This document shows positions 5,501 to 34,841 of a stretch of DNA of 64,000 nt, in pieces. Numbering within the stretch: the first letter of the stretch is position 1; each line of letters opens with the position of its first letter. The notes beneath the pieces were generated by a model that saw nothing but the letters and a program-made list of their open reading frames with translations, was not told the origin of the DNA and did no database searches. Position numbers and translations under genes: made by a program. This stretch comes from Actinacidiphila acididurans. Lineage in GTDB: Bacteria > Actinomycetota > Actinomycetes > Streptomycetales > Streptomycetaceae. The stretch covers positions 1-64,000 of the forward strand of contig NZ_JADKYB010000012.1 in assembly GCF_016918855.1 (NCBI RefSeq), in the 5' to 3' direction.

Positions 5501-7199
5501 GCTCCCCGACCCGGCCGCCGCCCTTCTTCGGGTCGGAGCCGGCCAGGAACACCCCGAACAGGCCGCGGTCGGGGATGGTGCCGCCGGAGGTGACCGCCAG
5601 CCGCTGTGCGCCGGGTCGGCCGGTGAGCGTGTTGGCCACCCGGTCCCACACCAGGCGCGGGCGCAGTTCGGCGAAGGCGTCCGACGGATACCGCCCGGCC
5701 AGCATGTCCAGCACCGCGGTGTAGGCGGAGTGCGGCAGCGAGGCGAAGGGCGCGGCCCGCCGCACCACGGCCAGCAGTTCGTCCACGTCCCAGGTGTCCA
5801 TCGAGGTCATCGCCACGATCTGCTGGGCCAGCACGTCCAGCGGATTCGCCGGGACCCGCAGCGCCTCGATCGCGCCCTGCCGCATCCGTTCGGTGACCAC
5901 CGCGGCCTGCACCAGGTCGCCGCGGTACTTGGGGAAGACCACGCCCCGGGACACGGCGCCCACCTGGTGCCCGGCCCGGCCCACCCGCTGCAGGCCGGAG
6001 GCGACCGACGGCGGTGACTCCACCTGGACCACCAGGTCCACGGCGCCCATGTCGATGCCCAGCTCCAGGCTGGAGGTGGCCACCACGGCCGGCAGCCGTC
6101 CGGCCTTGAGGTCCTCCTCGACCAGGGCGCGCTGCTCCTTGGACACCGAGCCGTGATGGGCGCGGGCCAGCACCGGCGAGGCGCCTTTGGCCGCGCCGGA
6201 CTGGGCCATGATCTGCGCCGGCGTGTGCGCCTCGGGCAGCGCCTCGCCCTCCATCCGCTCGTGCCCGATCTCGTTCAGCCGGTTGCACAGCCGCTCGGCC
6301 AGCCGACGGGAGTTGGCGAACACGATGGTGGAACGGTGCCCCTGGACCAGGTCGGCGATGCGCTCCTCCACATGCGGCCAAATGGAGGGTCGCTCGGCAG
6401 GACCCGCCGCCGGACCGGTGTGCTCGGCGGCCTCGGTGACCGGGGAGCCGCCCAGCTCACCCAGGTCCTCCACCGGCACCACCACCGACAGGTCGAATTC
6501 CTTCTGCGACGGCGGCTGGACCACGGTCACCCGGCGGTGCGGCGAGAGGTAGCGGGCGATCTCGTCCACCGGCCGGACCGTGGCGGACAGCCCGATCCGG
6601 CGCGCCGGACGCTCCAGCAGCCGGTCCAGCCGTTCGAGAGAAAGTGCCAGGTGGGCGCCGCGCTTGGTGCCCGCCACCGCGTGCACCTCGTCCAGGATCA
6701 CTGTCTCCACCCCGCTCAGCGCGTCCCGCGTGGACGAGGTGAGCATGAGGAACAGGGACTCGGGCGTGGTGATCAGGATGTCCGGGGGCCGGGTGGCCAG
6801 TGCCCGGCGCTCGGCGGGCGGGGTGTCCCCGGACCGGATACCGACCCTCACCTCGGGCTCCGGCAGGCCCAGCCGTACCGACTCCTGCCGCAGGCCCGCG
6901 AGCGGACTGCGCAGATTCCGTTCGACGTCGACCGCGAGGGCCTTGAGCGGGGAGACATACAGCACCCGGCAGCGGCGCCGGGCCTCGGCGGGTGGCGGGG
7001 TCGCCGCCAGCCGGTCCAGCGCGGCCAGGAAAGCAGCCAGGGTCTTGCCCGAGCCGGTCGGGGCCACGACGAGCACGTCGGAACCCCCCGCGATGGCAGT
7101 CCACGCGCCGGCCTGGGCGGCGGTGGGCTCGCGGAATGCCCCCGTGAACCACGCGCGGGTGGCGGGGGAGAAGGATTCGAGACTGCTCTGATCGGACAT
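2547..7199 (-). CDS. lhr: Lhr-type large ATP-dependent DNA helicase
   Basis: This 1550-residue protein is an Lhr (long helicase-related) superfamily 2 helicase, a 3'-to-5' translocase that unwinds RNA:DNA hybrids. Walker A APTGSGKT is at residues 46-53, DEVH at 170-173, motif III SAT follows, and motif VI is LQRVGRAGHQ. Beyond the core are the winged-helix and beta-barrel modules and the long Lhr C-terminal domain, so the length is that of the full family. The start at 7199 (MSDQSS) is chosen over ATG 7208 because a -10-like CAGGAT lies seven bases upstream, which would make the mRNA leaderless and would overlap the alternative start. Its promoter resembles the PafBC damage motif. It runs towards the Nei2-like gene. 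Confidence 0.93.
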   Translation of the reverse strand: MSDQSSLESFSPATRAWFTGAFREPTAAQAGAWTAIAGGSDVLVVAPTGSGKTLAAFLAALDRLAATPPPAEARRRCRVLYVSPLKALAVDVERNLRSPLAGLRQESVRLGLPEPEVRVGIRSGDTPPAERRALATRPPDILITTPESLFLMLTSSTRDALSGVETVILDEVHAVAGTKRGAHLALSLERLDRLLERPARRIGLSATVRPVDEIARYLSPHRRVTVVQPPSQKEFDLSVVVPVEDLGELGGSPVTEAAEHTGPAAGPAERPSIWPHVEERIADLVQGHRSTIVFANSRRLAERLCNRLNEIGHERMEGEALPEAHTPAQIMAQSGAAKGASPVLARAHHGSVSKEQRALVEEDLKAGRLPAVVATSSLELGIDMGAVDLVVQVESPPSVASGLQRVGRAGHQVGAVSRGVVFPKYRGDLVQAAVVTERMRQGAIEALRVPANPLDVLAQQIVAMTSMDTWDVDELLAVVRRAAPFASLPHSAYTAVLDMLAGRYPSDAFAELRPRLVWDRVANTLTGRPGAQRLAVTSGGTIPDRGLFGVFLAGSDPKKGGGRVGELDEEMVYESRVGDVFTLGTTSWRIEDITRDRVLVLPAPGVPGRLPFWKGDQLGRPLELGRAQGKWLREVGALAPEQARQRLGEAGLDAWAVDNVLAYLAEQRQACGHVPDDRTIVVERFRDELGDWRVIIHSPFGAQVHAPWALALGSRLQEKYGLDAQAMHADDGIVLRLPDADLMGLDLLDSDPALRGREYDPEQSPVGAADVVFEKGEIEHLVTDQVGGSALFASRFRECAARALLLPRRNPGRRTPLWQQRQRASQLLQVASEFGSFPIVLEAVRECLQDVFDVPGLVELMGDIEARRVRLVEVTTSEPSPFARSLLFGYVAQFLYEGDSPLAERRAAALSLDSRLLAELLGQAELRELLDPEVLAELDHELQWLTEDRRVKDVEGVADLLRMLGPLTGAELAERGAEPAWPAELEKSRRAIRVRIAGAEHWAAVEDAGRLRDALGTALPVGVPVAFTEPVRDPLGDLLARYARTHGPFTTADAAARFGLGAAVADGTLHRLSATGRLVQGEFRPGGAGQEWCDAVVLRRLRRRSLAALRQELEPVPPATLGVFLPQWQHVGTHSLRGMDGLARAVEQLQGATVPASALEKLVLPSRVTGYTPGMLDELTVSGEILWAGAGALPGKDGWVSLYLADSAPLLLPEPQPLEATALHRAVLAALEGGYGLFFRQIADQVRAGGLEAADPEIADALWELAWSGRLTNDTLAPLRALLGSGRTAGSTAHRAPRSVPRGRYSSLAARAPRGTASRSGPPTTAGRWSLLPVAEPDPTLRAHALTHTLLDRHGVVTRGAVAAEGVTGGFSAAYRVLSAFEETGQARRGYVVEGLGAAQFAMDGAVDRLRALSTAREREEDHSGRVRTVVLAAADPANPYGAALPWPEQPAGVSHKPGRKAGALVVLTDGELALYVERGGKTLLAWPMEEIRMQAAADALALAVREGALGRLTVERTNGEPALTSPMGHALEAAGFHATPRGLRLRDGG

Positions 7200-7206
7200 G
7201 CCACCC

Positions 7207-7229
7207 ATCCTGCCTCGCCCCACCGACAG
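7207..7229 (-). promoter_or_regulatory. PafBC-type damage promoter of lhr
   Basis: Read on the minus strand, CTGTCGGTG (7229-7221), eight bases, then CAGGAT (7212-7207) matches TTGTCRGTG-N8-TANNNT with one change in each half. Seven bases then separate it from ATG 7199. Confidence 0.6.
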
Positions 7230-7252
7230 CCCGCTGGCCCCGCGCGCCGGCC

Positions 7253-7306
7253 TGTGGATAACTTCGCCCCGGCTCGCTGACCTCGGGTTCGGTGATCTTG
7301 TCCACA
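7253..7306. promoter_or_regulatory. pair of DnaA-box-like sites upstream of lhr
   Basis: TGTGGATAA at 7253-7261 is the complement of TTATCCACA, and TTGTCCACA at 7298-7306 is the preferred Streptomyces DnaA box. They face each other 36 bases apart in the divergent gap between lhr and the DUF3046 gene. Two boxes are far too few for a replication origin. Confidence 0.4.
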
Positions 7307-7349
7307 GCCACCGGGCCCCCGACCATACGCGCGCGCGATACTGGCAGGC

Positions 7350-7544
7350 ATGCGGTTGACGATTTTCTGGGAGCGGATGCGCGCGCACTTCGGGGAGACG
7401 TACGCCGACTCCTTCGCGCGCGACCACGTGATGTCCGAACTGGGCGGCCGGACCGTGCTCCAGGCCCTGGAGGACGGCTGGGATACCAAGGACGTGTGGC
7501 GGGCCGTGTGCGAGGCGATGGAAGTGCCCGCCGCGCATCGCTGA
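7350..7544 (+). CDS. DUF3046 family small protein
   Basis: This 64-residue protein (starting MRLTIFWERM) matches the DUF3046 family, small actinobacterial proteins almost always encoded just upstream of recA. No catalytic residues are known. It is acidic and probably one helical domain, with aromatic residues at the N-terminus and a VWRAVCEAM helix at the end. There is no Shine-Dalgarno sequence. GATACT at 7337-7342 lies seven bases before the ATG, so the mRNA may be leaderless. It diverges from lhr and lies about 280 bases before recA, from which it is separated by the recA promoter region. Confidence 0.8.
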   Translation: MRLTIFWERMRAHFGETYADSFARDHVMSELGGRTVLQALEDGWDTKDVWRAVCEAMEVPAAHR

Positions 7545-7670
7545 CCCGTCCCGGGACCCGGCCCTCCCCTCTCTCCTGGCACAGCTCTCCCAGCCCAGCC
7601 CGGCGCGCCTCGGTATGGGCAGACGTGGATCGGGGGCTCGGCGAATCGTGTGAAGAGGAAAGCGACTCGC

Positions 7671-7700
7671 TTGACAGGGAAATCGAACATCCATTCAGAT
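7671..7700 (+). promoter_or_regulatory. SOS promoter of recA with LexA box
   Basis: TTGACA at 7671-7676 is a perfect -35, and TCAGAT at 7695-7700 could be the -10 at 18-base spacing. GAACATCCATTC at 7685-7696 lies between them and fits the actinobacterial LexA (Cheo-type) box GAAC-N4-GTTC with one change. A repressor there would block RNA polymerase directly. Confidence 0.75.
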
Positions 7701-7761
7701 GGAGAGGCCGGGCGGGAGTTCCGCCGGAGTTTTCCACAGCCCGGGGCGACGTCCGGGCGCA

Positions 7762-7784
7762 TTGTCAGTGGCAGGCGCTAGCGT
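7762..7784 (+). promoter_or_regulatory. PafBC-type (LexA-independent) damage promoter of recA
   Basis: TTGTCAGTG (7762-7770), eight bases, TAGCGT (7779-7784) is an exact match to TTGTCRGTG-N8-TANNNT. Transcription would begin near 7791 and give a leader of about 37 bases to the recA ATG. It lies about 80 bases downstream of the LexA-controlled promoter. Confidence 0.82.
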
Positions 7785-26936: not shown

Positions 26937-27064
26937 ACCGTACGCACAGGTTGCGACCCCACGGCGATCGTACGGGCAGCCTCCGTGACGCTCTCCGCGG
27001 CGGCCGTCCGGCGGGCCCCGCCGCACCACCCCCCGCCCAGACGACGAGTGGAGCACCGGCATGA
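26933..27064 (+). CDS. 43-residue small ORF coupled between siderophore genes
   Basis: This unrecognised frame encodes 43 residues (MNRTHRLRPHGDRTGSLRDA at the start, Ala/Pro-rich at the end). Its ATG overlaps the aminotransferase stop as ATGA at 26933-26936, and its TGA overlaps the ATG of the IucA/IucC gene as ATGA at 27061-27064. A perfect AAGGAGG at 26919-26925 stands seven bases before its ATG, whereas the IucA/IucC start has only a weak site. This is strong structural evidence that ribosomes translate it and hand over to the synthetase gene. The product may be a functional basic peptide or only a coupling device; no function can be given. Confidence 0.6.
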   Translation: MNRTHRLRPHGDRTGSLRDALRGGRPAGPAAPPPAQTTSGAPA

Positions 27065-28881
27065 CCCCCCACACCCCCATCGACCAGGCGCTCGTCAGGG
27101 TGGGCGCCGCGCTGCCGCCTCAGCGCGTGCGAACCGCCCCTGATCTGGACCCGGCGCCGGACCTGCTGGAACAACGCGAGCCGTACGCGGTGGCCGACGC
27201 CGCGGCCATCGAGAACCTGCTGCGCTGCTGGGTCCGGGAGACCGGGCTCGACCGCCCGGCCGACGGGATGCTGACAGTGCCGCTGCCGGCCAGCGGCACC
27301 CGGCTACGGGCCGCCGTCCGCCACTGGTCCCACACCGGCCACCACCGCTTCGGCCCCGCCCACCTGGCCGGCGCCGATCGCGTCCCGCTCACCGCCGTGA
27401 CCCTGACCACCCTGCTGGCCCGCGAGGGCGACAGTGCCCCGGCCGAAGCCGCCGACCTCGTCGCCCGCGTCGCGGACTCGGTACGCCGTACGGCCGCGTT
27501 CGTCACCGAGCGCCGCGAACAGCCGGGACCGGCCGAGCCGCTGCTGCCCTTCCTCGACTCGGAACAGGCGCTGATCCTGGGTCACCCCATGCACCCCACG
27601 CCCAAGTCACGCGAAGGGCTCGGTGAGACCGAGGCCGCCACCTACTCGCCGGAGTCGCGCGGCTCCTTCCCGCTGCACTGGATCGCGGTGGCGCCCGAAC
27701 TGCTGGCCACCGACTCGGCCTGGACCGAGCGGGGCCGACCGGTGCCCGCCCCCGACCTGCTGGCGGCCCTCGCCGGGCCCGGCCTGCGGCTGCCCGAAGG
27801 CGCGGCACCACTGCCGCTGCACCCCTGGCAGGCCCGCGACATCCGTCACCGACCGGGCGTACGCGCCCTGTTCGACGCCGGCGCGCTGCAGGATCTCGGC
27901 CCGGTCGGTACGGCGTGGCACCCCACCTCCTCGGTGCGTACGGTCTACCGGCCGGACGCCGCGGTGATGCTGAAGCTGTCGCTCGGCCTGCGCATCACCA
28001 ACTCCCGCCGAGAGAATCTGCGCAAGGAACTGCTGCGCGGCACCGAGGTGCATCGCCTGCTGCGCAGTGGCCTCGCCGTCCAATGGCACGCCGCGCACCC
28101 GGCGTTCGACATTGTGCGCGACCCGGCCTGGCTCGCGGTGAACGACGCCGACGGCCGACCGGTCCCCGGGCTCGACGTGATGCTCAGGCACAACGCCTTC
28201 GGCGCCGGTCACCAGGCGCACTGCGTCGCCGGACTCACCTCGCCCCGCCCCTGGCAGGACCTGCCGCTGCCCGCCATGCGCTCACGACTGGCCGTCCTCG
28301 TCGCCGCCCTGGCCCAGCGCACGGGTCGGCCCGCCGCCGCCGTGGCCACCGAGTGGTTCCTGCGCTATCTGGACGCGGTCGTCCGCCCCGTGCTCTGGCT
28401 CGACGGCGAGGCCGGGATCGCCCTGGAGGCCCACCAGCAGAACACCCTGGTACTGCTCGACGCCGACGGCTGGCCGTCCGGCGGACGCTACCGCGACAAC
28501 CAGGGCTACTACTTCCGGGTCTCCCGCCGCTCCGACCTCGATGCCCGGCTGCCCGGCATCGGCATCGACAGCGACACCTTCGTGGCCGACGACATCGCCG
28601 ACGAACGCTTCGCCTACTACCTTGGCATCAACAACGTCTTCGGCCTGATCGGTGCCTTCGGCTCCCAGAAGCTGGCCGACGAAGAGGTGCTCCTCGCCGC
28701 CTTCCGGCGCTTCCTCGGCACCGTCGGCGGGCGCAGCGCCCTGCCCGACTTGCTGCTGGACACCTCCCACCTGCGCTGCAAGGCCAACCTGCTGACCCGG
28801 CTGAACGGCATGGACGAACTCGTCGGCCCGGTCGACACCCAGTCCGTGTACGTCACCGTGCCCAACCCACTGGCCCGGTGA
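27061..28881 (+). CDS. IucA/IucC family NIS siderophore synthetase (first)
   Basis: This 606-residue enzyme is an NRPS-independent siderophore (NIS) synthetase, which adenylates a carboxylate such as citrate or a hydroxamate-bearing acid and condenses it with an amine or alcohol. Family motifs are ILGHPMHPTPKSREG near residue 178, PLPLHPWQARD near 255, KLSLGLRITNSRRENLRKEL near 305, and EAHQQNTLVLLD in the ATP site. The C-terminal FhuF-like part includes YYLGINNVFGLIGAFG and LRCKANLLTRL. Its start overlaps the stop of the 43-codon ORF, and the GNAT gene follows after 75 bases. The substrate class cannot be set from motifs alone. Confidence 0.93.
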   Translation: MTPHTPIDQALVRVGAALPPQRVRTAPDLDPAPDLLEQREPYAVADAAAIENLLRCWVRETGLDRPADGMLTVPLPASGTRLRAAVRHWSHTGHHRFGPAHLAGADRVPLTAVTLTTLLAREGDSAPAEAADLVARVADSVRRTAAFVTERREQPGPAEPLLPFLDSEQALILGHPMHPTPKSREGLGETEAATYSPESRGSFPLHWIAVAPELLATDSAWTERGRPVPAPDLLAALAGPGLRLPEGAAPLPLHPWQARDIRHRPGVRALFDAGALQDLGPVGTAWHPTSSVRTVYRPDAAVMLKLSLGLRITNSRRENLRKELLRGTEVHRLLRSGLAVQWHAAHPAFDIVRDPAWLAVNDADGRPVPGLDVMLRHNAFGAGHQAHCVAGLTSPRPWQDLPLPAMRSRLAVLVAALAQRTGRPAAAVATEWFLRYLDAVVRPVLWLDGEAGIALEAHQQNTLVLLDADGWPSGGRYRDNQGYYFRVSRRSDLDARLPGIGIDSDTFVADDIADERFAYYLGINNVFGLIGAFGSQKLADEEVLLAAFRRFLGTVGGRSALPDLLLDTSHLRCKANLLTRLNGMDELVGPVDTQSVYVTVPNPLAR

Positions 28882-28956
28882 GCGCCGGGCACCGCATCCC
28901 AACCACACGCCGGCCCGCTGCCGGGCACCCGGAGCCGAGCAGAGGAAGGAGTTCCG

Positions 28957-29664
28957 TTGCCACCCTCCGACCCCAGCGCCGAGGACACCCTCGACCTGAA
29001 GCTGCCCGCCGAAGCTCTGGCGCTCATCCCTGAGGAACCCCAACAGGAGCGGGGTGCCGGTCGTGACCCCGCGACGGGTACCGACGACCGGGCCGCGCTG
29101 CTCGACCACATCGCCGCCTGGGGCCCCGCCGACACCCCGCACGGCTCGTTCCGTCTCGTCCCAGTGGTGCCCGCCCGTGACCTGGCCCTGATCACCCGAT
29201 GGATGAACGACCCGGCTGTCGCCGAGTTCTGGGAGCTGGCCGGCGAGGCTCACATCACCGAGAAGCACCTGAGCGCACAACTCGACGGCGACGGCCGCAG
29301 TGTGCCCTGCCTGGGCGTGCTCAAGGACATCCCGATGAGCTATTGGGAGATCTACCGCGCCGACCTGGACCCGCTCGCCCGCTACTACCCGGCGAGGCCC
29401 CACGACACCGGCGTCCACCTCCTCATCGGTGGCGTCGCCGATCGTGCCCGCGGCCTCGGCAGCACCCTGCTGCGTACGGTCTGCGGGATGGTCCTGGAGC
29501 ACCGGCCCGCCTGCACCCGTGTGGTGGCCGAACCCGACCTGCGCAACACCCCCTCCGTCTCCGCCTTCCTCACCGCGGGTTTCCGCTTCTGCGCCGAGGT
29601 CGACCTCCCCGGCAAACGCGCGGGCCTGATGATCCGCGACCGAGCCCTGTCCCACCTCATGTGA
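28957..29664 (+). CDS. GNAT acyltransferase of the siderophore cluster
   Basis: This 235-residue protein is a GNAT-fold acyltransferase of the siderophore (IucB/RhbD/MbtK-like) group, which acylates a hydroxylamine or amine of the siderophore building block. The first 65 residues are a Pro/Asp-rich extension. The GNAT core runs from FRLVPVVPARDLALITRWMNDPAVAEFWELAG to the acetyl-CoA-binding region DRARGLGSTLLRTV, and the family motif ending NTPSVSAFLTAGFRF is present. The start is TTG at 28957, supported by AGAGGAAGGAG at 28941-28951. No N-hydroxylating monooxygenase is encoded nearby, so the acceptor is uncertain. Confidence 0.85.
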   Translation: MPPSDPSAEDTLDLKLPAEALALIPEEPQQERGAGRDPATGTDDRAALLDHIAAWGPADTPHGSFRLVPVVPARDLALITRWMNDPAVAEFWELAGEAHITEKHLSAQLDGDGRSVPCLGVLKDIPMSYWEIYRADLDPLARYYPARPHDTGVHLLIGGVADRARGLGSTLLRTVCGMVLEHRPACTRVVAEPDLRNTPSVSAFLTAGFRFCAEVDLPGKRAGLMIRDRALSHLM

Positions 29665-29670
29665 ACGGCT

Positions 29671-29724
29671 GAGGTCGGCCGCCGGTGCTCCGGTCCGGTC
29701 GGCGGCCTCGGCCTCGCGTGTTTT
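29671..29724 (+). terminator. intercistronic hairpin with T run in the siderophore operon
   Basis: GAGG (29671-29674) and GGCCGCCG (29677-29684) pair with CGGCGGCC (29700-29707) and CCTC (29712-29715), around a small internal loop. GCGTGTTTT follows. It lies 7 bases after the GNAT stop and 38 before the second synthetase start. It could be a partial terminator or an mRNA processing and stability site that lowers expression of the last gene. Confidence 0.5.
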
Positions 29725-29761
29725 CCGACCCACCACCTCGTCCCCGTGCAGGAGCCCACCT

Positions 29762-31522
29762 GTGATCGTCCCGCCCTCTCCCGACGGCGCCGCCTGGCAC
29801 CGCGCGGCCCGGCGACTGCTCGCCAAAATGCTTGCCGAATTCGCCTACGAAGAGGTGATCATCCCGGTGCCGGAGCCCACCGCCGGCCCCACGTCGTACC
29901 GCCTGGACCTCGACCCCGACATCACCTACCGATTCCGCGCGCGCCGCGGTTCGTACGGCAGTTGGTACGTGGACCCGGAGAGCATCGGCCCCACCGGGGA
30001 TCCCCTGCACTTCCTCAGACATGGGTACGACACCGTGCTCGGACTCGGCGGAGACACCACCGGACACCTGATCAAGGAACTGCTGGCCACCCTGTGCGCC
30101 GACACGCGGCTGGACGCCACCGCCCTCAGCGCCGCCGAACTCGCCGACCTCGACTACGCCGAACTCGAAGGGCACCAGACCGGGCACCCCTGGCTGGTCG
30201 CCAACAAAGGACGTATCGGATTCTCCGACGCGGACGCCGCCCGCTGGGCACCTGAGGCCCGCAGGCACCACCGGCTGCCCTGGATCGCGGTCCACCGCAA
30301 CATGGCCCGATACCGCGGCATCCCCACCCTTGCCACCCCCGATCTCCTCTACGTGGAGGAACTCGCCCCCGCCACGCTCGACACCTTCCACCACGCCATC
30401 GCCGACCGGGGCCGGGAACCCGCCGACTACCTGCTGCTGCCCGTCCACCCCTGGCAGTGGGAGCAGGTCGTCGCCCCGCTGTTCGCCCCGGCGATCGCCG
30501 ACGGATCCATCCTGCACCTCGGCACCGACAACGACCTCCGGCTGCCCCAGCAGTCCATCCGTACTTTCCTCAACGTCACCCGACCGCGTCGTCGTACGGT
30601 CAAACTCCCCCTCTCCGTCCTCAACACCCTCGTCTGGCGTGGCCTGCCCACCGAACGCACCCTTGCCGCGCCCGCCGTGACCGCATGGGTGCACGCCCTG
30701 CGCGACCGGGACCGCTTCCTGCGCGACGAGACCAGAGTGATTCTGCTCGGCGAGGTCGCGTCCATCGCGGTGGCGCACCCGCAGTACGACGCCCTGCCCA
30801 CCGTGCCCTACCAGTACCGGGAACTGCTCGGCTGCATCTGGCGCGAGCCGCTCGGCACCTACCTCGACCCCGGCGAGCGGGCCCGTACGCTCGCCGCGCT
30901 GCTGCACACCGATCCCACGGGCCGAGCCTTCACCGCGGAGCTGGTCGAACGATCCGGACTCGCCCCCCGGGTCTGGCTGCGGCACCTGTTCGCTGCGCTG
31001 CTGCCCCCGTTGCTGCACTTCCTCTACCGCTACGGCACGGTGTTCTCACCGCACGGCGAGAACGCCATCGTGGTCTTCGACGAGCACGACATCCCGGTCC
31101 GCCTCGCGGTGAAGGACTTCGTCGACGACATCAACGTCTCCGCCGAACCGCTGTCCGAGCATGACACCATGCCGGACGACGTACGAGCCGTACTCCTCAC
31201 CGAATCACCCGAATTCCTGACACAGTTCATCCATTCGGGCCTCTTCGTCGGGGTGTTCCGCTACCTCGCGCCGCTGTGCGACCAGCAGTTGGGCGTTCCC
31301 GAAGCCGAGTTCTGGGCATTGGCGCGCGAGGAGATCCTGCGCCACCAGGAGCGCTTCCCCGAGCTCAAGGAACGATTCGCCACGTTCGACCTGCTCACGC
31401 CGCGGATCGAGCGGTTGTGCCTGAACCGGAACCGGCTGCACCTCGACGGCTACCGGGACCGGCCGCAGCGCCCGCACGCCGCCGTCCACGGCTTTGTCCA
31501 CAACCCGCTCCACCGACCCTGA
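29762..31522 (+). CDS. IucA/IucC family NIS siderophore synthetase (second)
   Basis: This 586-residue protein is a second NIS synthetase, clearly diverged from the first. GHPWLVANKGRIGFS near residue 140, YLLLPVHPWQWEQV near 225, KLPLSVLNTLVWRGLP near 280 and SPHGENAIVVFDEHDIPVRLAVKDFVDDI near 430 are its ATP and substrate motifs. Two different synthetases imply two condensation steps, for example addition of two arms to one dicarboxylate core. The GTG start follows CAGGAG at 29748-29753. The gene ends the cluster. No exporter, receptor or siderophore-binding protein gene is adjacent. Confidence 0.93.
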   Translation: MIVPPSPDGAAWHRAARRLLAKMLAEFAYEEVIIPVPEPTAGPTSYRLDLDPDITYRFRARRGSYGSWYVDPESIGPTGDPLHFLRHGYDTVLGLGGDTTGHLIKELLATLCADTRLDATALSAAELADLDYAELEGHQTGHPWLVANKGRIGFSDADAARWAPEARRHHRLPWIAVHRNMARYRGIPTLATPDLLYVEELAPATLDTFHHAIADRGREPADYLLLPVHPWQWEQVVAPLFAPAIADGSILHLGTDNDLRLPQQSIRTFLNVTRPRRRTVKLPLSVLNTLVWRGLPTERTLAAPAVTAWVHALRDRDRFLRDETRVILLGEVASIAVAHPQYDALPTVPYQYRELLGCIWREPLGTYLDPGERARTLAALLHTDPTGRAFTAELVERSGLAPRVWLRHLFAALLPPLLHFLYRYGTVFSPHGENAIVVFDEHDIPVRLAVKDFVDDINVSAEPLSEHDTMPDDVRAVLLTESPEFLTQFIHSGLFVGVFRYLAPLCDQQLGVPEAEFWALAREEILRHQERFPELKERFATFDLLTPRIERLCLNRNRLHLDGYRDRPQRPHAAVHGFVHNPLHRP

Positions 31523-31646: not shown

Positions 31647-32201
31647 ATGAAGGACGGCACGGACACCGGCGTCTGTCCGGAGTGCGGCACGCCCGGCGTG
31701 CGGCCGGGGCAGTTGGTCTGCCAGGGCTGCTTCGTGCCCTTCTCCCTGATGGCACCGCCGAAGGACCGGGACGACGATCCCGACCCCACCGCCGACCTGC
31801 CCCAGGTGGACCCGGACAACGAGCAGACCCGGGTGATCAACATGATTCCCGGCGCGCTGCCCCGCCCCGCGCAGACCCGCAGGGACACCCCGCCCAGGGC
31901 GCTGCGGCTGTCCTTCCCGGGCGGGGAGATCGTGCCCGTCGAGCCCGGGGTGCGCATACGCATAGGCCGCGACCCGCAGCTCTGCCCGGCAGTTGCTTTC
32001 CTGTCCACCCGCGACAACCTCTCGCGGCTGCATGCCACCGTGGCGGTCGAGGCGGACGGCTCCGCCTGGATCTCCGACGAGGGCTCCACCAACGGCACCT
32101 TCGCGCACGGCTATCGCCTCGGTCCGGGGGACCGCGCTCCTCTGCGTCCCGGCGACCGAATACGGCTGGCCGCGGACGTGAACGTGAACGTGCTGCCCTG
32201 A
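31647..32201 (+). CDS. zinc-ribbon and FHA domain protein
   Basis: This 184-residue cytoplasmic protein combines an N-terminal zinc ribbon (CPEC and CQGC at about residues 10-13 and 26-29) with a C-terminal FHA domain, a phosphothreonine-binding module. The FHA signature is readable: RIRIGRDP, NLSRLHATV and DEGSTNGTF. The linker between them is acidic and contains the segment DNEQTRVINM, where a Thr could be a kinase target. AAGGGGGG at 31633-31640 sets ATG 31647. It converges on a Ser/Thr kinase gene, the likely source of the phosphate signal it reads. Confidence 0.85.
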   Translation: MKDGTDTGVCPECGTPGVRPGQLVCQGCFVPFSLMAPPKDRDDDPDPTADLPQVDPDNEQTRVINMIPGALPRPAQTRRDTPPRALRLSFPGGEIVPVEPGVRIRIGRDPQLCPAVAFLSTRDNLSRLHATVAVEADGSAWISDEGSTNGTFAHGYRLGPGDRAPLRPGDRIRLAADVNVNVLP

Positions 32202-32286
32202 GCGAGCGCCGTCGCGGCCCGGCCGGCCTTCGGCCCGGGCACGTCGGCCTTCGGGCAGAGCCCTTCACCGCTCCCGCGGGGCGCCC

Positions 32287-33492
32287 CTACTCGGCGCGGG
32301 ACGCGGCATAGGCGGCGACACAGCGGGAGAGCGGGTGATCAGGACCCAGCGCCAATGAGGTGTTCTGCGCCAGCTCCGTCAGGCGGCGGGACACCGCGGC
32401 GGCGCCGTTGAGTCCTTCGAGTGCCCGGGCGCGGCCGAACAGCGCGGCGAAGGACGCCGGTTCGTCCTCGGCGCCCAGGCGGGTGATCTGCTGCAACGCC
32501 TGCCAGTAGCGCCGGTCGGCGTCGGCGAACCTGCCCTGGGCGAGCAGCCCTTCGCCGTCCTCCAGCATGGTCCACACCACCTGCCGGGCCCCGTTGACCA
32601 AAGCGCTGGGGGTGCGCGGCGCTGCGCCGGACCGCTGCATGGCCCGCAGCCGCAGAGCGACCTCGCCCGCCCCGGCCGGGCGGTCCTCCGGACGTTTGGC
32701 CAGCAGTCGGTGGATCAGGCGCGCCAGGTCCGCCGGCACCTCGGGTCGGCGGCTCTCGATCCGTTCCGGCGTCTCGTGCACATGCGCATAGGCATATCCG
32801 ACGGCATTGCCCGCGGTGAAAGGAGGTCCTTCGGCGAGCATCGCGTACAGCACACATCCCAGCGAGTAGAGGTCCGACTGCTCAGTGACCTCATGGCCCT
32901 GGGCCTGCTCCGGCGAGAAGAACCGCGGGGAGCCCAGCACCGCGTGCGGGTCGGTGTAGCGGGTGAGTGTGGTGTCCCGCTGCGTCACCAGGCCGAAGTC
33001 GCAGATCTTGACCACGCCGTCCGGGAGCAGCATCACGTTCTCCGGCTTGATGTCCCGGTGGATCAAGCCGCGCTCGTGGGCGTGCTGCAGGCCGGCGCAG
33101 ATCTGTGCCCCGTATGACAGTACGTCGGCGACCGGCAGTCCACCGCGTTCCAGTAGCACCTGCCGGAAGTCGGTGCCGTTGAGCAGTTCCATGACCAGGA
33201 ACGGGCGCCCCTCGTGCTCGCCCGCGTCATGGACGGTGGCCACGTTCGGATGACTGAGCGCCGCCGCGGCGACCGTCTCCCGGCGGAATCGGCCCTGCCG
33301 CTCGCTGCGGTCGCCGTCGCCCCACTCCTCGCGGAGCGTCAGCACCTTCACCGCCACCCGGCGGGAGAGTCGCTGGTCCACCGCCGCGTAGACCCGCCCG
33401 AATCCGCCGCCACCCAGCGACTCCTCCAGCCGGTACCGCCCGTTCAGGACCGTACCGACCCCGATCTCGCCCGCCACACCGTCCTCGCTCAC
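32287..33492 (-). CDS. soluble Ser/Thr protein kinase with TPR-like tail
   Basis: This 401-residue Hanks-type kinase has all catalytic elements: the glycine loop GGGGFGRVY near residue 27, VAVKVL with the ATP-anchoring Lys near 48, HRDIKPEN near 145, and DFGL near 165. GSPRFFSPEQAQG replaces the classical APE with SPE. There is no membrane segment or PASTA repeat, so it is cytoplasmic, unlike PknB. Residues about 300-400 are helical and end in NTSLALGPDHPLS, a tetratricopeptide-like pattern. The GTG start lies 53 bases after the stop of the NYN-FHA gene on the same strand, so the two are probably cotranscribed. Confidence 0.92.
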   Translation of the reverse strand: MSEDGVAGEIGVGTVLNGRYRLEESLGGGGFGRVYAAVDQRLSRRVAVKVLTLREEWGDGDRSERQGRFRRETVAAAALSHPNVATVHDAGEHEGRPFLVMELLNGTDFRQVLLERGGLPVADVLSYGAQICAGLQHAHERGLIHRDIKPENVMLLPDGVVKICDFGLVTQRDTTLTRYTDPHAVLGSPRFFSPEQAQGHEVTEQSDLYSLGCVLYAMLAEGPPFTAGNAVGYAYAHVHETPERIESRRPEVPADLARLIHRLLAKRPEDRPAGAGEVALRLRAMQRSGAAPRTPSALVNGARQVVWTMLEDGEGLLAQGRFADADRRYWQALQQITRLGAEDEPASFAALFGRARALEGLNGAAAVSRRLTELAQNTSLALGPDHPLSRCVAAYAASRAE

Positions 33493-33545
33493 GTCTGCTC
33501 GTGCCGCTCGCTCACGCCCGCCCGCCCACGCCGGTCGTACCGCCC

Positions 33546-34727
33546 CTACTCTTCGTGCCCCTCACCCGGGCTCGGCCAGGGAAGCGGCACACTCAACATG
33601 GTCGGGCCCACGGCCGAGGCGCTGTCCTGCGGTCCGACCGTACCGTCGGTGGTGTCCTCTTCGAACACGAACTGCCTGCCGCTGGGCAGGAGTTCCAGCC
33701 GGTCGTGGAGCACGATCGAATCACCGCGGCGCAGCGTCCAGACGATGCCGTGGTGGAGGAGGAAGAGTTCGTCGCCGCTGGGCCGGACCCGGCGCACCCG
33801 AGTGCCGTTGGCGCTGCGCTCGTCCACCACCGACAGAACCTTCCCGTCGTAGTGCAGCACCACATGCGTCCGGCTCACGGAGTCCACCGCGGTGTCGTCG
33901 ACCCATGCGCCGAGCGCCACCCCGCCGGCCGCGGGGGCCCGGCCGACGGCCAGCGGCTCGCCCGCCGTGACCATGAAGCGGCCCCGGACCGTGCCGTCCA
34001 TGACGACCTTGACCTGGGCACGGCGGGGCAGCGGCCCCAGGTCGGTGAGCGGCAGGCCGTGCGTCGGACAGAGGACCTTCTCCCTGCGGCGGCGGGGCAG
34101 AGCGGTACTCGGACGGTCGGCGGCACCGAACAGCGGGCAGCCGGGCGCGGGGCAGCGCCAGTCGCGGCTCAGCACGGACCGGTGTCCGGAGGGGGCCCAG
34201 CGGCGCAGCACCCCCGCCTCCAGCAGAATGCCCTCTTCCTCCTTGCGGGACACTTCCCATTCGGGTGGCACCGGCATGACGCGAAGACGTACCCCTGTCC
34301 GGCCGTCCGGCTCCGCGAAGGGGCGCAGAAAGCGGTCCCGGCTGCCCGGGATCCACGGATAGGCGCGGTGGAAATCGAGGAAATTGTCCGCGCTGACCAC
34401 CTGCAGTTCCAAGGCGTCGGCCAACTCCAGGATCCGGTCGTCCGCCCGCGGCAGGACCTCCAGCAGCCCGGTCTCGTACCAGCGGCCCAGGCGCTCGCGC
34501 TCGTCCGCGGTCAGGCGTCCGTCGGTCAGCAGGGAGCGGTCGGTGATCGCGTACACCTGCACCGCCGGGTCGTGGGCGAACTCGGCGAGCGCGTCCAGCA
34601 GTCCTTCGAGCCGGGCCAGATCCGCGGCCCTTTCCCCGCCCAATGCCGGCTCGCGCACGACGTTGGCCACATCCACGACGTATTCGGCGGCGGAAGCATC
34701 AAGCGTCAGGTGGCTCTCGCACTGCAT
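33546..34727 (-). CDS. NYN/PIN-like nuclease-fold protein fused to FHA domain
   Basis: This 393-residue protein starts with a nuclease-like region of about 150 residues: EYVVDVANVVRE with a conserved-type Asp, YAITDRSLL, and LQVVSADNFLDFHRAYPWI. That order of acidic residues suits an NYN/PIN-like RNase. A possible zinc knuckle (CPAPGCP, then CPTHG) lies near the middle. An FHA domain occupies about residues 255-345, with VGRAP, VSRTHVVLHYD and DERSANGTRV. Kinase signalling could therefore steer an RNase. TAGCTT on the minus strand ends eight bases before the ATG, suggesting a leaderless mRNA. The FHA call is firm; the nuclease call is inferred. Confidence 0.75.
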   Translation of the reverse strand: MQCESHLTLDASAAEYVVDVANVVREPALGGERAADLARLEGLLDALAEFAHDPAVQVYAITDRSLLTDGRLTADERERLGRWYETGLLEVLPRADDRILELADALELQVVSADNFLDFHRAYPWIPGSRDRFLRPFAEPDGRTGVRLRVMPVPPEWEVSRKEEEGILLEAGVLRRWAPSGHRSVLSRDWRCPAPGCPLFGAADRPSTALPRRRREKVLCPTHGLPLTDLGPLPRRAQVKVVMDGTVRGRFMVTAGEPLAVGRAPAAGGVALGAWVDDTAVDSVSRTHVVLHYDGKVLSVVDERSANGTRVRRVRPSGDELFLLHHGIVWTLRRGDSIVLHDRLELLPSGRQFVFEEDTTDGTVGPQDSASAVGPTMLSVPLPWPSPGEGHEE

Positions 34728-34809
34728 ATGACCAGAAGCTAGCACCGGCGGACCGGACCGGTCCCGGGAATGCCGGCGGGCGACCGGGGCGGGTGAGAGC
34801 GGGACGGCG

Positions 34810-34832
34810 TTGTCAGTGGCTCGCCGTAGGCT
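34810..34832 (+). promoter_or_regulatory. PafBC-type damage promoter of dinG
   Basis: TTGTCAGTG (34810-34818), eight bases, TAGGCT (34827-34832) is an exact match to TTGTCRGTG-N8-TANNNT. The dinG ATG follows nine bases later, so the mRNA is probably leaderless. Confidence 0.85.
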
Positions 34833-34841
34833 GGCCTCCCT

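Follow-up and report, generated by a model that had tools for sequence, protein, structure and literature searches.

What a soluble Ser/Thr kinase does beside two proteins with forkhead-associated (FHA) domains, one of which carries an NYN/PIN-like region at its N-terminus, is the question raised by a three-gene block of Actinacidiphila acididurans. The block lies in the stretch of 64,000 nucleotides analysed here (the window; positions 1 to 64,000 of contig NZ_JADKYB010000012.1, assembly GCF_016918855.1), from a genome whose nearest named relatives in sequence searches are Actinacidiphila. It comprises the genes for a zinc-ribbon–FHA protein of 184 residues (Zn-FHA; 31647..32201, forward strand), a Hanks-type kinase of 401 residues with a GTG start (32287..33492, reverse strand) and an NYN–zinc-ribbon–FHA protein of 393 residues (NYN-Zn-FHA, or NYN-FHA; 33546..34727, reverse strand, with the ATG at 34727 and the stop codon ending at 33546). 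All three reading frames have codon GC of the coding type, and they match exactly the coordinates given in an earlier note on this DNA. That note suspected a phosphorylation-controlled system for RNA cleavage or RNA binding, which is still the best-supported reading given the conserved acidic residues and the recurrent kinase linkage described below. More specifically, we propose, with a probability of roughly 0.55, that the cassette is a kinase-gated NYN endoribonuclease effector, probably serving in stress or conflict.

The case for RNA cleavage as an output starts with the N-terminal part of the NYN-FHA protein, for which the earlier note had suggested a structure prediction and a check of acidic active-site residues. 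No Pfam, NCBIfam or PADLOC model scored above noise on residues 1-160, and the cut-off for RNase_Zc3h12a (PF11977) was reached neither there nor elsewhere in the same genome. An AlphaFold model built on 25 relatives and compared with solved structures is confident over the NYN region (pLDDT ~90), and residues 9-150 match PRORP1/2 (Z ~12.5, 3.0 Å over 136 residues) as well as MCPIP1/ZC3H12C (Z ~11.7). An hhalign comparison with a bacterial RNase_Zc3h12a-type domain gave an E-value of 3.5e-11 and aligned D19, N22, D63, D96 and D114 with their equivalents in that domain, a remote relationship; the bacterial domain itself forms the C-terminal part of a fusion with an Hsp70-like protein (L058 1-1941, genome G034). 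By its predicted fold, the N-terminal domain (residues 13-150; 34278..34691, reverse strand) thus belongs in the NYN/PIN superfamily, next to PRORP and Regnase/ZC3H12C. Among 33 non-redundant relatives, reduced at 80% identity, D19 is kept in 32, N22 in 28, D63 in 30, D96 in 29 and D114 in 31, and all five positions are invariant in the intact NYN-FHA proteins of the genus. Strong purifying selection acts on the NYN part (dN 0.09, dS 0.80, dN/dS ~0.11 against the nearest relative). Metal-dependent RNA cleavage by NYN-Zn-FHA is the activity that we would predict from this fold and these residues. Unlike Regnase/ZC3H12 and PRORP, with which it has the NYN fold in common, the window protein carries neither a CCCH finger nor PPR repeats, but has a C-terminal zinc ribbon, an FHA domain and a bacterial kinase as partner.

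The remainder of the protein fits a phospho-reader. The earlier note had recognised the FHA domain and the NYN/PIN-like region, both of which stand, but had missed the zinc ribbon between them (residues 188-228; 34044..34166, reverse strand). Of its ligands, C192, C197 and C220 are present in all 33 relatives, while the fourth position, H223 in the window protein, is His or Cys in 33 of 33. The FHA domain (residues 232-353; 33669..34034, reverse strand) is detected by Pfam (E 8e-5) and resembles FHA structures with Z ~13; its phosphothreonine pocket has R263, S285 and N307 all in place, with R263 kept in 32 and S285 in 31 of the 33 relatives. The C-terminal tail is variable apart from a PT motif, PT(M/L), whose threonine, T376 (33600..33602, reverse strand), is a candidate phospho-acceptor: PT followed by M, L, I, V, R, Q or S occurs in 18 of 33 tails against 3.7 expected, a count reached by 0 of 2000 shuffles.

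The two companion proteins are likewise intact, and the descriptions in the earlier note hold for both. The kinase matches the Pfam protein kinase domain (E 5e-50), retains its motifs (VAVK with K49, HRD at 145, DFG at 165) and has no transmembrane-like stretch by hydropathy. Its last 112 residues (290-401; 32290..32625, reverse strand) are modelled as five helices (pLDDT 92) and match TPR proteins, among them kinesin light chain and Rap, with Z 11-12.7, although helical repeats easily reach high Z values; the likeness to TPR is purely structural, and Pfam finds neither a rubredoxin nor a PknG_TPR domain in the protein. The kinases of L026, L054 and L055 have a tail of this type as well. Matches to PD-T4-6 were set aside as generic: many PADLOC kinase models hit the protein, covering essentially its kinase domain, and they also match the other Hanks kinases scanned. 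The Zn-FHA protein has two CxxC pairs (C10, C13, C25, C28) and an intact FHA domain at residues 104-174 (Pfam, E 9e-12). Zinc ribbon and FHA domain are joined by a variable linker in which the motif TRVINM, with T61 (31827..31829, forward strand) as a second candidate phospho-acceptor, is retained in most genus members.

How closely the NYN-FHA protein and the kinase are tied can be judged from the arrangement of their genes. The kinase gene lies 53 nt downstream of the NYN-FHA gene, and the Zn-FHA gene is convergent with the kinase gene and thus outside this operon. A -10-like TAGCTT, 8 nt before the ATG of NYN-FHA (34736..34741, reverse strand), is kept across the genus and would be part of a leaderless promoter from which NYN-FHA and the kinase are transcribed together. 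In four genus members (L060-L063, from G079, G094, G112 and G055), the NYN-FHA gene is gone in frame and the kinase stands at its former promoter, preceded by the same -10-like box; the first kinase codons there, ATG TCG TTC GAG, resemble the ATG CCG TTC GAG with which NYN-FHA begins in several genus members. This junction reads as an in-frame deletion scar, which would mean that NYN-FHA was lost rather than gained. Since the promoter at which the kinase begins in this clade is the one found before NYN-FHA in other genus members, a single transcript for both genes is supported, as the earlier note had supposed for these two genes. Next to this promoter, dinG and NYN-FHA diverge over 34728-34841, with -10 boxes that seem to directly precede both ATGs (leaderless). 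SOS control through the neighbouring dinG and lexA was considered and dropped, as a scan of this intergenic region, itself noisy, showed no LexA-box-like site.

The genus-wide survey (35 genomes) reveals an asymmetric pattern. NYN-FHA occurs in 20 of the genomes, fewer than the kinase tail (24) or Zn-FHA (25); 10 genomes have none of the three, and the dinG locus hosts the set in every member inspected. Five genomes carry the kinase and Zn-FHA without NYN-FHA. At L059 NYN-FHA is likewise missing, with a junction that differs from that of L060-L063. NYN-FHA without the kinase was seen only in G412 (L064), where the kinase is truncated and the NYN-FHA gene has an in-frame TGA, an N22D change and a damaged zinc-ribbon region; the two genes appear to have decayed jointly there. 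Another member, G100 (L025, ~7060-7770), has a deletion of NYN and half of the zinc ribbon while the FHA frame, the kinase and Zn-FHA are retained. Thus, the NYN-FHA gene has been lost several times in the genus while kinase and Zn-FHA stay, and it was never seen intact without the kinase. Such a pattern would fit an effector that needs the kinase as well as one that has to be restrained by it, and it does not decide between the two.

It is possible that the kinase and Zn-FHA instead form a housekeeping pair concerned with metabolism, and that NYN-FHA is an optional extra which takes part in everyday RNA turnover and not in conflict. The genomes that keep only the pair, and the position of the locus among core genes beside a siderophore operon, would agree with this, as would a resemblance to PknG and GarA/OdhI. 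In that system a soluble Hanks kinase with a TPR tail acts with a small FHA protein whose Thr motif lies in a flexible stretch ahead of its FHA domain, and GarA/OdhI switch by binding their own phosphothreonine. The window kinase is likewise soluble with a TPR-like tail, and Zn-FHA is also small, its Thr motif standing in the linker that leads to the FHA domain. However, the kinase has no PknG_TPR or rubredoxin match, GarA lacks a zinc ribbon, and an RNase–FHA protein is added in the window. Moreover, the pair can hardly be housekeeping since it is absent from 10 of the 35 genus genomes, and distant members of the family pair NYN-Zn-FHA with various kinases without Zn-FHA. We therefore regard the housekeeping explanation as unlikely. 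The layout of Zn-FHA is also that of ArnA of Sulfolobus, a zinc finger–FHA protein that pairs with the vWA protein ArnB and controls motility (PMC6509490), but no NYN protein belongs to the ArnA–ArnB pair.

Does the association of the three genes extend beyond the genus? The three-gene set, with the same type of kinase tail, occurs at three unrelated sites, namely the dinG locus, the interval between rpoC and rpsL–rpsG–fusA, which hosts it in S. scabiei and S. coacervatus, and a third locus, L026. In the rpoC interval (L054 10866-13645 and L055 10455-13309), a second kinase of ~800 residues with a hydrophobic C-terminal region, encoded by a gene that overlaps the Zn-FHA gene, makes the set a four-gene cassette. 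The trio rows from the three sites form one clade (support 99/98), which points to an ancestral cassette kept together through relocation. In a later, class-wide sample, from which FHA-only matches (positions 217 onwards) were excluded as other FHA proteins, NYN-Zn-FHA was found at full length in at least four families. A Hanks kinase lies next to NYN-Zn-FHA in 6 of 11 assessable loci of this sample, where chance would provide a kinase neighbour at ~1.8% per locus (36 kinases in 9.69 Mb; P 1.6e-8), and at least 6 changes are needed to explain the linkage on the tree. The co-conservation on which the earlier note had made its proposal depend is therefore seen both in the trio and, for the kinase, in an independent sample; as the acidic residues are conserved by sequence too, neither outcome that the note had named as a refutation came about. 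No relative was found in the viral contigs, plasmids and phages searched, and nothing thus speaks for mobility of the cassette itself.

Several observations weigh against a kinase-gated ribonuclease. In about half of the lineages of the family, NYN-FHA stands without a neighbouring kinase, and actinomycete kinase and FHA genes often cluster, so that some of the linkage could have arisen in this way. The cassette resides among core genes, and the plasmid and phage records searched do not contain it, which gives no direct sign of a defence island. N307 of the FHA pocket is Tyr in 8 of 33 relatives. The TRV linker is missing from Zn-FHA at L026, L054 and L055 although NYN-FHA is encoded there, and four or five of the 33 relatives (L021, L080, L109, L038) lack key acidic residues. 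The abundance of actinomycete kinase and FHA genes, with 36 kinases in this genome alone, might even suggest that the three share no function and are neighbours by chance, or through the clustering that is common for kinase and FHA genes. We consider this very improbable, as unrelated sites carry the trio with one and the same type of kinase tail, the linkage in the independent sample far exceeds chance and NYN-FHA shares its promoter with the kinase. The linker also bears on T61: the TRV-containing linker is gone in the NYN-less clade (L060-L063) and T61 has become Ile in the decayed G412 locus, but T61 cannot be a general link since L026, L054 and L055 have NYN-FHA without this linker. Its co-loss with NYN, resting on few events, was accordingly rejected as proof of a phospho-link, and both T376 and T61 are to be taken as leads rather than proof.

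The loss of key acidic residues raises the alternative that the NYN domain binds RNA or protein without cutting, in a phospho-controlled RNA-binding or scaffold regulator whose FHA domain assembles the unit on the kinase. The proteins of L021/L078, L080 and L109 are degenerate at the acidic positions while retaining the zinc ligands and most FHA residues; they are probably pseudo-enzymes, and the NYN part can apparently serve without catalysis in some lineages. The FHA frame that persists in G100 after deletion of the NYN half points the same way, yet this remnant has no clear start. Against a non-cutting role for the window protein, the five acidic/Asn positions are conserved in most of the family and without exception in the intact genus proteins, and purifying selection maintains the NYN part. 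A purely binding function is, in our view, improbable here, and we continue with an active, kinase-gated ribonuclease.

The earlier note knew of no description of such a system, which is correct only in part. In the vWA-MoxR-associated protein (VMAP) ternary conflict systems, PIN domains fused to a Zn-binding domain, and PIN domains with FHA, are reported as effectors (Kaur et al. 2020, PMC7159879), and these effector regions sit in the vWA component (PMC7159879). A Zn-binding domain that comes after a PIN-type RNase domain, and the presence of PIN and FHA on one polypeptide, are common to those effectors and the window protein; the latter differs in being free-standing, with its own kinase and Zn-FHA. 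None of the VMAP system genes (VMAP, MoxR AAA+, vWA component) was identified among the window neighbours. They occur only at L038/L039, where an NYN-Zn-FHA with degenerate NYN and FHA parts (L038) forms the end of a SAV_2336-type protein whose neighbours are VMAP-C/trypsin and MoxR AAA proteins. Kinase-centred phospho-signalling is also the feature of the TerY-P-type triad of a vWA protein, a PP2C phosphatase and a Ser/Thr kinase (PMC11090510, citing Anantharaman 2012 and Gao 2020), which as described there has no NYN-Zn-FHA member. At L103 (742-5883) and L104 (9419-14669), an operon PP2C–vWA–NYN-Zn-FHA–kinase-like, with a second, divergent NYN-Zn-FHA gene, resembles this triad with an RNase–FHA member added; neither a vWA nor a PP2C gene was identified beside the window block. 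The PIN/NYN–Zn–FHA module is thus already known in fused form, whereas a stand-alone NYN/PIN–FHA–kinase operon was not found described in the literature searched, which included few subscription papers.

The surroundings of the block are a siderophore gene set on one side and dinG–lexA–nrdR–nrdJ on the other. The siderophore set (27061-31522) is of the NRPS-independent (NIS) type by Pfam, with two IucA/IucC-type synthetases and a GNAT protein, and adjoins the block in nearly all inspected genus members; the synthetase at 29762 has no full-length match in L045 and L064.

We propose that the block is a small cytoplasmic phospho-signalling unit with RNA cleavage as its output. NYN-Zn-FHA would be a metal-dependent endoribonuclease of the NYN/PIN superfamily whose zinc ribbon probably holds RNA or a partner. 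The co-transcribed kinase, scaffolded by its TPR tail, would phosphorylate threonines in flexible segments, with T376 of the NYN-FHA tail and T61 of the Zn-FHA linker as candidates, and the two FHA domains would read these phosphates within one protein or between proteins. By analogy with the GarA/OdhI switch, phosphorylation may set whether and where the ribonuclease acts. A role as a stress or anti-invader ribonuclease, held off until a trigger, appears likely because VMAP systems and PP2C–vWA–kinase systems employ relatives of the NYN-Zn part as effectors. Perhaps, more tentatively, NYN-Zn-FHA proteins are actinomycete-wide, exchangeable and phospho-gated RNase effectors with a defensive purpose, serving modules as varied as TPR-tailed kinases with Zn-FHA, large kinases, PP2C–vWA–kinase operons and VMAP systems; they would then correspond, in bacteria, to the RNA decay by Regnase-type enzymes under kinase control.

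Actinomycetes have many Hanks kinases, and for few of them is the output known. A ribonuclease with its own phospho-reader and genetically tied to a kinase would make the path from Ser/Thr phosphorylation to RNA cleavage a direct one that can be tested, and the cassette would link effectors noted so far only in large conflict systems to a three-gene unit small enough for reconstitution. That the ribonuclease was lost repeatedly while the kinase stayed leads to a clear genetic prediction on which protein restrains or needs which.

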